64,000 nt of DNA from Paracoccaceae bacterium (GTDB lineage Bacteria; Pseudomonadota; Alphaproteobacteria; Rhodobacterales; Rhodobacteraceae), in contig JABSSD010000134.1 of assembly GCA_013214575.1 (NCBI GenBank), positions 24,199-88,198 of the forward strand, read 5' to 3'. The position numbers and the translations under genes were made by a program. The notes beneath the pieces were generated by a model. The model did not search any database. It saw only the letters and a program-made list of their open reading frames with translations, and was not told the DNA's origin. Positions 9,362 through 61,135 of this stretch are shown here, piece by piece (within the stretch, counting starts at the first letter, position 1; each line of letters begins with the position of its first letter).

Positions 9362-9400
9362 GTTGGATTGGGGCGTTGGATTGCGGTGTTGGATTGGGGC
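9362..9400. repeat. 13-bp tandem repeat, three units
   Basis: GTTGGATTGGGGC, GTTGGATTGCGGT and GTTGGATTGGGGC are head to tail just behind the dehydrogenase stop. The last unit forms the left arm of the hairpin of the adjoining intergenic repeat. Confidence 0.75.
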
Positions 9401-28780: not shown

Positions 28781-29045
28781 GGCTTGGGGTCTCCCTGGCT
28801 GGTTTGGGTTGTTTTAGCCTTGCGGCGCTGGGCCGGTTCGTCAAGTCGGGTGTTTTGGTTTTCGTCGCCCTCGGCGGCAGGGGGGCTGCACCGGCAGTGC
28901 TTGCGCGGTGGCAATGTTTGAAACGGGGGAGCGCATCCGGGCGGTAGGGATAACAGCGTTGGCAGTTGTGTTGCTTGGGCAGTGGTGCCGCTGGGGATGG
29001 TTCTGGGAAGGGAACTTAACTAACAATCCAAATCTTCGATTTGGT
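28781..29045. other. Gene-free interval between the CDGSH gene and the first palindromic element
   Basis: A 66-codon frame at 28908 exists but has no support and ends inside repeat DNA. GC content falls toward the right end (AACTTAACTAACAATCCAAA), where an accessory-looking block begins. Confidence 0.4.
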
Positions 29046-29102
29046 CAGCGCCCGACCCTCCCCACGGGAGGGCGCTTTGCACCCACCCAGGGTCAGGCGC
29101 TG
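29046..29102 (+). repeat. Palindromic element, copy 1
   Basis: Arms CAGCGCCCGACCCT and AGGGTCAGGCGCTG are inverted with one mismatch over 14 bases and enclose GGGAGGGCGCTTTGC. It shares order and much sequence with copies at 31.3 and 59.7 kb. The stop codon of the interrupted minus-strand gene lies inside it. Confidence 0.7.
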
Positions 29103-29827
29103 GGGTGAGCAGCTGAGGTTTCATCCTGATTTTTGAGTGCCAATAAACCTTCGGCCACTAAAATGCCTAAGCTCGAAGAGCAGGCCTTCCCTTCGTCGGG
29201 AGACAGAAATTCGGTGGGCGAATAAGGAACCATTTCTGCCATGTCTAACGCTAAAAATATGGACGTTTGAATGTGAACTCCAGCAAGAAGCCTAGCAGTG
29301 TCTTTATTGAAAACGGGTTCGATTTTGAACGGGATGTTGCCCAGAAGTGTGCTTAGGAGATTGTGTTTTGAAAGATGGGCGATTCCGGAGAGTTGACCGT
29401 ATGATTTCCCAATATGGCGGAGAGCTTTTAACCGAGGAGTTTCACCGTCAGCTTGACGGTTCTGTCGAATCCCTCGGAGAGCTTCAATTCCCTCAATAGA
29501 TTGTCTAACCAGCGTCGAAGCAGCGACTTAGTTACCTTTTCCAATTAGAGCAAATGTTAGCGGAGCATTCTGTAACATCGCAGTCTGAATGGCGGCCCGC
29601 CTTTGGTCGTCGAGTGATATCTGTGAGCGTAAACACGCTGCATCTCGAGAAATGACGGACCCACATGCTGATAGGGAGAGGTCAAAGGCTGTTATTAAGT
29701 GTCCTTCCGAAACCTGAAACTCTTTTTCAACCTTGGCTTCTTCGTCTCCAAGAGAATGTCTCAGAGTATTTGCGAATCCCAGGAATTCAAAGGGTGGAAA
29801 GTTATCACTCAAACAGTTCGTCCCCAC
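29093..29827 (-). pseudogene. Unknown helical protein gene interrupted by one in-frame TAA
   Basis: One frame runs from the end of rimO to a TGA at 29093-29095 with a single TAA at 29528-29530. The first part (about 94-99 codons, in the ORF track) ends ...LTFALIGKGN. The second part, missing from the track, reads VAASTLVRQSIEGIEALRG and continues for 144 codons in the same frame to ...KNQDETSAAHPSA. No standard start codon occurs soon after the TAA, so this looks like one gene of about 244 codons carrying a nonsense mutation. A TTG at 29812 overlapping the rimO stop (TTGA) with GGGGA upstream is the most likely start. I recognise no family. It is AT-richer than its neighbours. Programmed readthrough is an alternative. 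Confidence 0.7.
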
Positions 29828-31212: not shown

Positions 31213-31280
31213 GAGGGGCCATATAGTATGGCTGAGCGCGTTTGGGAATGGAGGATTTTGCACTGTTTTGCACCTGTTTC

Positions 31281-31358
31281 GCCCGGTGGCACACCGGGCC
31301 GCGCCTGACCTTCCCCCCAGGAAGGCGCTTCTCGCCTCCCCAAGGTCAGGCGCGGCCC
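31281..31358 (+). repeat. Palindromic element, copy 2
   Basis: A small hairpin (GCCCGGT...ACCGGGC) is joined to a larger palindrome with perfect 17-base arms, GGGCCGCGCCTGACCTT and AAGGTCAGGCGCGGCCC. It lies between the divergent rimO and pentapeptide genes and has the same orientation as copy 1. Confidence 0.8.
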
Positions 31359-31425
31359 TTTGTTATGTGTTGATATGTCAGGTCAATCACCCCTAACCTG
31401 TAGCGAAAGCCATTTTGATGACGAG

Positions 31426-34915: not shown

Positions 34916-34935
34916 TCTGCTAACAGCGCTCTGAT

Positions 34936-35040
34936 AAGACTGGGGCTCTGCCACCGCCATTGGGCTTGGCCAATGGCGCTCAAATAAGGCTGGGGCTCTG
35001 CCACCGCCATTGGGCTTGGCCAATGGCGCTCAAATAAGAC
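34936..35040. repeat. 50-bp tandem repeat, two units plus start of a third
   Basis: A 50-base unit beginning AAGACTGGGGCTCTGCCACC is repeated at 34936, 34986 and 35036, the third copy passing into the intergenic repeat. Each full unit carries a hairpin, CGCCATTGG-GCTTGG-CCAATGGCG. The two full copies differ at very few positions, implying a recent duplication. Confidence 0.85.
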
Positions 35041-35084
35041 TGGGGCTCTGCCCCAGACCCCGGGATATTTTTGGCCAGATGAAG
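35041..35084 (+). repeat. Roseobacter-type intergenic repeat (ATATTTTTGGCCAGATGAAG variant)
   Basis: Hairpin TGGGGC-TCT-GCCCCA followed by GACCCCGGGATATTTTTGGC and CAGATGAAG, between convergent asmA and phosphomannomutase genes. Confidence 0.8.
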
Positions 35085-45933: not shown

Positions 45934-45978
45934 TTGGGGCGCTGCCCCAAACCCCGGGATATTGTCAGCCAGATGAAC
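45934..45978 (+). repeat. Roseobacter-type intergenic repeat (ATATT...CAGCCAGATGAA variant)
   Basis: TTGGGGC-GCT-GCCCCAA hairpin followed by ACCCCGGGATATTGTCAGCC and AGATGAAC. It lies between divergent starts of the EamA gene and argD. Confidence 0.75.
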
Positions 45979-59475: not shown

Positions 59476-59715
59476 TGTTCACTCATCCTAGATCGGCGGA
59501 TCTTGGCGCCCGCATATGGGCGCATTATGGCGCAACCCCGACAGGGGGGCAATCATGGTAAACACCGGCGGATGTTTGGGCGGGATGTTGCCGGGGTAAA
59601 ACCTGTGTTGAACGCAAAGCCCAAGGCGCGAGGGATTCGCATCATTCGCATCATTCGCATCATTCGCAACGGGCAGCGCCCTAAGCGCAGGGTGAATGGA
59701 CCAAGCGCAAAGGGG
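59476..59715. other. Gene-free interval with a 9-bp tandem repeat
   Basis: ATTCGCATC is repeated in tandem (59635-59670): three identical units and a fourth, ATTCGCAAC. ORFs crossing it are not supported. The promoter of the leftward 104-aa gene must lie near its right end. Confidence 0.5.
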
Positions 59716-59790
59716 CGCGCCTGACCTTGGGTGGGCGCAACGCGCCTTCCCGGGGGGAAGGTCAGGCGCGGCCCGGTCTGGCGACCGGGC
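59716..59790 (-). repeat. Palindromic element, copy 3 (inverted)
   Basis: Arms CGCGCCTGACCTT and AAGGTCAGGCGCG are perfect over 13 bases; the side hairpin GCCCGGT...ACCGGGC is on the right. Read in reverse it matches copy 2, GGGCCGCGCCTGACCTTCCC, almost base for base. Confidence 0.8.
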
Positions 59791-59815
59791 GAAGGGCCTT
59801 TTCGACTTGGGTTTG

Positions 59816-61135
59816 CTACAGGTCAATTGGAGCGTTAGTCTCCGCCCCAAATTTGCTCATGAGGAATTCTCCGAGGTGGATCAAATTTTCTTCACGTTTT
59901 TCAGGGCCAATCTCGTCGCCTGACAGCATATAAAGAATTCCCGTGACACTGCACACAGCAAGAAATCCATTCCTGAGGAATGCCGAGTAATTTTTTCTCT
60001 CACGTTCGGAAAGCTCATCGGGCTTAGTCCGCTTTAGCAACTCGAGTTGTTCTTCCAGCTCTGCTACTTTTCCTTTTAGTCTGCCAACCTTTTCAATCAA
60101 AAAGTGCTCGGATGCCGTATTGACAGATGTTTTTTGCAATGACCCAGCAACGGATTGCATAAGTGCTGGAATGTCCTCCAGTGGCAAAAAACGGTCGGGG
60201 AGGCGATTTTCGAGTGTTTCCTTTCGGAAACCTGCAATTGCTTGCGAAATTTGGAATGAACAACTGTTCAAATTGGCGCTGATGACGACTTTGTTCTCGA
60301 TCAGGTGATGGACAGATTTCGGTTCGTATACAGGAAATCGGTCTTGTATCTGAGCGTCTGCAGAGCCAAAAATGCCCCGAATACTCTTAATCTCCCGCGC
60401 AACCGCCTCAGCCCCTTCTTCCCAAACCGCATCCTTGATCAGCGCCACCTGCAATTGCAGATCCCAATCGAGCGGCTTGCCCTCCAGCATGCTTTGATAC
60501 CAGTCGCGCCAGAAGGCCCAGGTCTCGTCTGGGTCTGGATGCGCGGCGAAACCCTCCCAATATCCCAATAAAGGTCCGATGTGGTCAGTCGAGGGCCACA
60601 GGGGGCGCTTAAACATTTCCACGTGGTTTCCATTTTGTCGAGCACGCGCATCAGCACGAACTACGGAATTGGTGAAGTTGATGAGGGGGGTGCCCAAGTT
60701 GGAGACGGAGTAGACAGCGAGGGCAATTGCATTGGCTGAGTTGACGGCGGAACGGACGGCGGAGTCGGCCGAATGGGCCGAGTCGGAGGTGGTAGTGGTT
60801 GTGGCGGAGATAGCGACTGAGAGGGCGACGCTGGAGTGGGCAGGGTCGAATCTGTAACCTGTTGTGATGGCGGCGGAGAAGGCAGCGGAATTCACCTTTT
60901 TCATAACAGGGGTTCGACAAGTGCTCGCAACCCCCGTTATGAGCGTCGCCCTGAAACAAGACAAAAGCAAGCCTTGGCCGTTCAAGCTCCCGAAGTTATT
61001 ATCAACTTCGGCCATTGCCACTGGCAGACTTCGCAGAGATGCCCGCGCCGCGATCGCCCGGCTCATCCGCGGATCTTGCGTCTGCAGCCAGCTTTCCAGC
61101 TGATCCATATCCTCAATTTTGTCAAAATCGTCCAA
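59816..61135 (-). CDS. Unknown 439-aa Ala/Ser/Thr-rich protein with coiled coil and membrane segment
   Basis: The start is TTG (or the ATG at EDMDQLE); TAAGGA lies about 9 bases upstream. The order is: N-terminal acidic helix [23 protein letters not shown], a low-complexity Ala/Ser/Thr stretch of about 90 residues, then [17 protein letters not shown] and [25 protein letters not shown], a coiled coil ([20 protein letters not shown]) and a short hydrophobic segment ([18 protein letters not shown]). The LWP...W.DWY block recurs, from memory, in a family of unknown alphaproteobacterial proteins. Palindromic element copy 3 follows its stop. It is AT-richer than its neighbours. Confidence 0.6.

Follow-up and report, generated by a model that had tools for sequence, protein, structure and literature searches.

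A short REP-like palindromic repeat dispersed through a Paracoccaceae genome and its relatives

Several described systems resemble the repeat considered here. Rickettsia palindromic elements (RPEs) are palindromic and of similar size, and can sit in frame inside a gene. Intrinsic (Rho-independent) terminators are GC-rich hairpins found directly after the stop codon. REPs are palindromes of 20-40 bp located downstream of genes and tagged either GTAG, in association with RAYTs, or CGTC (PMC3733652). CGTC REPs lack a dedicated transposase, occur mainly in alphaproteobacteria and have a stem of 8-9 bp; roseobacter genera looked for by name are absent from the main text of that account (PMC3733652). 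In both IS200/IS605 and REP/TnpA_REP systems, a guide tetranucleotide is described as lying 5' to the foot of the hairpin (PMC6006769). A preliminary description of a 64,000-nt stretch of Paracoccaceae DNA (hereafter the window) had noted three copies of a palindromic element, the third inverted relative to the second and sharing with it both sequence and a side hairpin, and had proposed a nonautonomous dispersed element of about 60-80 bp with two stem-loops.

The relationship between copies 2 and 3 is borne out. The 20-mer GGGCCGCGCCTGACCTTCCC occurs exactly at 31296-31315 (plus strand) and 59755-59774 (minus strand), and a partner with three mismatches at 31339-31358 is the other arm of copy 2; 0.02 matches are expected by chance, and three were reached in none of 100 shuffles. 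The intervals 31290-31362 (copy 2) and 59708-59780 (copy 3) are 89% complementary across 73 nt, and the side hairpin recurs in both copies (Table 1). Folded as RNA, both are much more stable than shuffled sequence: -57.5 kcal/mol for copy 3 (z -3.6) and -51.3 kcal/mol for copy 2 (z -4.8). The element is indeed short, though slightly larger than first proposed, at about 85 nt.

Table 1. Coordinates of the element copies and the neighbouring reading frame in the window (bit scores from covariance model CM R1).
Feature	Position	Strand	Details
Copy 3, complete element, short subtype	59708-59792 (~85 nt)	-	94.8 bits, E 4.7e-18
Copy 3 side hairpin, 5' of palindrome	59771-59790	-	minus-strand reading GCCCGGTC-GCCA-GACCGGGC; plus-strand letters GCCCGGTC-TGGC-GACCGGGC
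Copy 3 palindrome arm	59712-59728	.	GGGGCGCGCCTGACCTT (plus-strand letters)
Copy 3 opposite palindrome arm	59758-59774	.	AAGGTCAGGCGCGGCCC (plus-strand letters)
Copy 2, short subtype	31279-31362	+	92.4 bits
Copy 2 side hairpin	31281-31299	+	GCCCGGTG-GCA-CACCGGGC
Copy 2 palindrome arms	31296-31312 and 31342-31358	+	
Copy 1, CGACCCTCCCCACGGGAGGG subtype	29025-29109	+	77.4 bits
Copy 1 side hairpin	29028-29044	+	CCAAATC-TTC-GATTTGG
Copy 1 palindrome arms	29047-29059 and 29089-29101	+	
439-aa ORF neighbouring copy 3, outside the element, no Pfam match	59816-61135	-	stop codon abuts copy 3

In the copy 2 orientation, the element comprises a side hairpin, a palindrome and a short T-rich tail. The palindrome spans 12-17 bp and its arms (GCGCCTGACCTT / AAGGTCAGGCGC) are conserved in sequence, a conservation inflated by the pattern-found part of the copy set, which combines covariance and pattern matches. 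The side hairpin is variable in sequence and abuts the palindrome exclusively at its 5' side: by a strict count (a perfect stem of at least 6 bp) it is present in 66 of 125 copies, compared with 0 of 125 on the 3' side and 1.1 expected from shuffles. Its stems represent 38 distinct sequences, about half with G..A loops. The outer part of the palindrome arm also serves as the 3' strand of the side hairpin. The middle GGGC thus has a GCCC partner available to each side, and the two hairpins compete for a common strand. In copy 3, the outer GCCC (59771-59774) of arm AAGGTCAGGCGCGGCCC doubles as one strand of the side hairpin, making the two folds mutually exclusive there. The two stem-loops of the preliminary description are strongly supported, with the correction that they share a strand. 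Variants of the three strands covary (GACC/GGTC/GACC, ACCC/GGGT/ACCC), and between the 5' and 3' terminal tetranucleotides 3.06 of 4 positions match, versus 2.36 after shuffling, an excess that shared ancestry inflates somewhat. The tail is confined to one side, with T at 66% of +1 positions and 60% of +2 positions and mixed letters thereafter.

Three core subtypes occur: short (CTTCCCCCCGGGAAGG), copy 1 type (CCCTCCCCACGGGAGGG) and long (112 nt). The 60-bp core of copy 1 recurs throughout the genus at 92-100% identity. The loop of the long subtype holds CCGTCAAACCGGAGGTTTGCC..GGCAAAACGG, which is able to pair two ways, and a CGTC motif (CCGTCAAACCGGAGGTTTG) lies at the start of this loop insert. 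In L206, L245, L250 and other long-subtype copies, the CCGTCAAACCGGAGGTTTGCC..GGCAAAACGG insert forms a miniature of the shared-strand design of the whole element.

The window holds several other features of note. In the sister species (G003) the place of the 439-aa ORF is taken by a diverged reading frame, and in other congeners by ORFs of varied length, and thus the slot before lepA is variable. A short tandem run of the 9-mer CATCATTCG (59636-59670), absent in G003, flanks copy 3 at the end distal to this gene. A second dispersed repeat, CCCCGGGATATTTTTGGCCAGATGAAG, is present at 1710-1736, 35058-35084 and 45952-45978, with relatives at 9393, 12211 and 47462, and is often preceded by a GGGGCGCTGCCCC hairpin; it matches 46 places in the genome at no more than two mismatches, compared with 0 for a reversed-pattern control. 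A 50-bp unit in three tandem copies, 72-88% alike to the first, occupies 34919-35068 and ends in the CCCCGGGATATTTTTGGCCAGATGAAG repeat.

The element is dispersed well beyond the window, through marine Rhodobacteraceae. A covariance model built from 12 copies yielded 61 rows in the whole genome (G000), corresponding to 37 places after both-strand duplicates were merged, and 35-61 rows in each of all seven congeners (some copies counted on both strands). The preliminary description had proposed a genome-wide search and would have counted three copies alone, not conserved in relatives, as evidence against a dispersed element; the 37 copies and the dozens of matches in every congener contradict that scenario and strongly support a dispersed, non-coding element. 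Elsewhere in the Rhodobacteraceae, 1-12 rows were obtained in several genera, and almost all other alphaproteobacteria gave none. A sequence pattern run against 84,980 species gave 78 loci, almost all of them in roseobacters (Leisingera, Phaeobacter, Zongyanglinia/Parasedimentitalea, Pseudophaeobacter, Amylibacter, Shimia and Tritonibacter), while plasmid-borne copies are found in Phaeobacter, Leisingera, Tritonibacter and Paroceanicella. A match in Vagococcus humatus (L115) was rejected as chance, being an AT-flanked terminator of ordinary type that includes a T run. No Rfam family matched at its gathering score, the best overlap being CRISPR-DR9 (19.9 vs 45 bits, E 0.12). Literature searches with core words matched only unrelated papers, and searches for roseobacter REPs yielded nothing relevant; no published description was found in the literature searched, though an account in a subscription journal is possible.

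Copies of the element are concentrated at gene ends. Among copies with two neighbours called by a simple heuristic gene caller, codirectional gaps contain 95, convergent gaps 35 and divergent gaps 10, the background numbers of such gaps being 485, 134 and 196; divergent gaps are depleted (Fisher p 3e-8) and convergent gaps hold an excess. Within codirectional gaps, 71 of 95 copies are nearer to the stop than to the start codon (p 1.5e-6). Median distances are 24 bp to the stop and 148 bp to the start. The neighbours are often ordinary genes (miaB-like, cobW, cobO and transporter genes); the association with accessory genes suggested for the three window copies therefore fails as a rule, and closeness to stop codons is the real one. 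Some copies are paired, 1.5-3 kb apart; an integron-like cassette arrangement was considered for these and dropped, the genes at the examined pairs being ordinary conserved ones.

This placement invites comparison with terminators. Like intrinsic terminators, the element forms a GC-rich hairpin directly after stop codons, but it lacks a reliable U tract and is used in either orientation. Copies favour the antisense orientation only weakly (60 antisense, 35 sense; p 0.013) and the T run is short and one-sided, so transcription from the upstream gene would not regularly meet a U tract after the hairpin, and the element is not a classical intrinsic terminator. It is also unlikely that the copies are purely bidirectional transcription terminators that arose or were kept by selection site by site, rather than a mobile family. 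Such an origin would agree with the adjoining stop codons, the convergent excess and divergent rarity, and the substitution of unrelated hairpins in some species; against it stand the weak T tracts, a copy located in frame within xdhC on plasmids of Leisingera aquaemixtae and L. caerulea and absent there in relatives, and the common arm sequence at about 37 unrelated sites and in many species, which requires dispersal. The xdhC copy also provides the in-frame parallel to RPEs, although the sequence differs and the element is overwhelmingly intergenic.

The element also resembles REPs. As dispersed palindromes mainly downstream of genes, copies of the element have the placement by which REPs are recognized, and they share with the GTAG REP/RAYT system high copy number, intergenic location, hairpin RNA, and variable orientation and presence. 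They differ in size (~85 nt, not 20-40) and in the additional one-sided hairpin that shares a strand. GTAG or GGAG was found at either 5' foot of the hairpin in 0 of 129 copies, and on the other strand in 5 of 129. Searches for a Y1 transposase or RAYT returned one decayed IS200-like match, with a stop codon, in G000 and none in G001, G003, G004 and G005. A RAYT as mover, a possibility raised in the preliminary description, is consequently not supported, and a RAYT is unlikely to have been the original disperser. CGTC REPs are likewise alphaproteobacterial and downstream of genes, with no dedicated transposase known, but only 1 of 129 copies carries the CGTC tag at the element ends, and the stems are 12-17 bp as opposed to 8-9. 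Since placement and behaviour match REPs while tags and RAYT do not, the element is termed REP-like rather than REP.

Comparison across the genus indicates that many sites are retained while the element at them varies, with cores swapped between the three subtypes and halves deleted. Copy 1 has an orthologue in G003, and that of copy 3 in the same species is ~94% identical. The copy 3 locus has kept the same side hairpin in G000, G003, G004, G005 and G007, with a short core in G000, G003 and G004, a long core in G005 and a copy 1-type core in G007; G004 additionally carries a second, opposite copy, which is the sole copy in G001 and G006. At the copy 2 locus, the core is short in G000 and of the 112-nt long subtype in G003, G001 and G005, while the copy is decayed in G004 and decayed or partly deleted in G007. 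About sixteen sites could be compared between G000 and G003 (~92-94% identical): most agree, four are in opposite orientation (one of these a half copy in G003), and the element is absent once in G000 and once in G003. Viewed genus-wide, G000 departs from the rest at loci C and D and, together with G005, at B, as does G003 at A, where G002 has a decayed copy. At loci B-D, the G000 spacer differs throughout, which indicates replacement rather than a simple flip. Leisingera aquaemixtae plasmids likewise carry opposite copies of different subtype at the same site. Locus D in G004 has neither element nor hairpin, and hence any function is not needed everywhere. Unrelated hairpins occupy locus A in three congeners, as if a hairpin were useful there. 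The hairpin pair seen in place of the element at locus A in G005, G001 and G007 (L297, L298, L299) is GCGATCGCCTACCCG..CGGGTAGGCGATTTGG, perhaps another repeat family.

At the compared sites, no clean empty site with a target-site duplication was seen, and where sites differ the whole intergenic stretch has usually been replaced. The proposed nonautonomous character fits insofar as no copy contains a gene, but active transposition is at most conjectural. A currently mobile single-stranded DNA element of the IS200/IS605 type, with the foot tetranucleotide GGGC of the long hairpin as the guide pairing with GCCC at both ends and an unrecognized Y1/HuH enzyme as the mover, appears decidedly unlikely. 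The coupling of tetranucleotides (5' NNCC / middle GGNN / 3' NNCC, in versions GCCC, ACCC, CGCC, TGCC and GACC) matches the guide arrangement described for such systems (PMC6006769), and presence and orientation vary between sister species; however, template switching can also yield this coupling, no clean empty site was seen, and the four congeners without Y1_Tnp have dozens of element matches. A MITE of a classical DDE insertion sequence with terminal inverted repeats is highly improbable: the element is small, non-coding, dispersed and palindromic with site occupancy that differs between species, but the conserved side hairpin is one-sided, copies lie at gene ends, neither target-site duplications nor clean junctions were seen and the examined neighbours include no transposase. 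Also very unlikely is a hairpin switch, whereby the middle strand would alternate between its 5' and 3' partners on single-stranded DNA and an unrecognized enzyme would use the guide/target pairing to excise, flip and re-insert the element at gene ends, so that sites would remain filled as orientation and core vary.

Two G000/G003 pairs resemble products of template switching. At C197:69131 the side hairpin has grown to CAGCTTTTGGGCCGTG..CACGGCCCAAAAGCTG, overwriting a palindrome arm still present in G003, apparently with the 5' arm of the side hairpin copied across the palindrome arm; at C22:9711 the loop has been deleted and the arm corrected. Template switching is known both to generate hairpins and to preserve them (PMC8794818). 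It could account for stems that are perfect yet variable with no need for selection, but not for the spread of the element to 37 sites.

Taken together, the element is probably a family-restricted, non-coding, REP-like, transposase-less and mostly 3'-flanking repeat that was amplified in an ancestor of this roseobacter lineage, appears mainly as a hairpin at mRNA 3' ends, has its stems kept at least in part by template switching and has its copies replaced by recombination. Judging from placement, copies would usually be transcribed as the 3' end of the upstream mRNA. There the GC-rich palindrome may act as a bidirectional barrier that protects the mRNA 3' end and damps read-through, or copies may merely be tolerated; palindromes at gene ends could persist simply because insertions elsewhere are purged. 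The sequence pairs above suggest that replication template switching inside the hairpins is at least partly what keeps the stems perfect, and copies may be replaced, re-cored or turned round through recombination between dispersed copies or with imported alleles.

These findings add a well-delimited REP-like family for roseobacters, and because it is without a RAYT, how it spreads and is maintained can be examined independently of that enzyme. Across eight congeners, the conserved sites show core, side hairpin and orientation each evolving separately, and they provide a good natural data set on how template switching builds and maintains hairpins.
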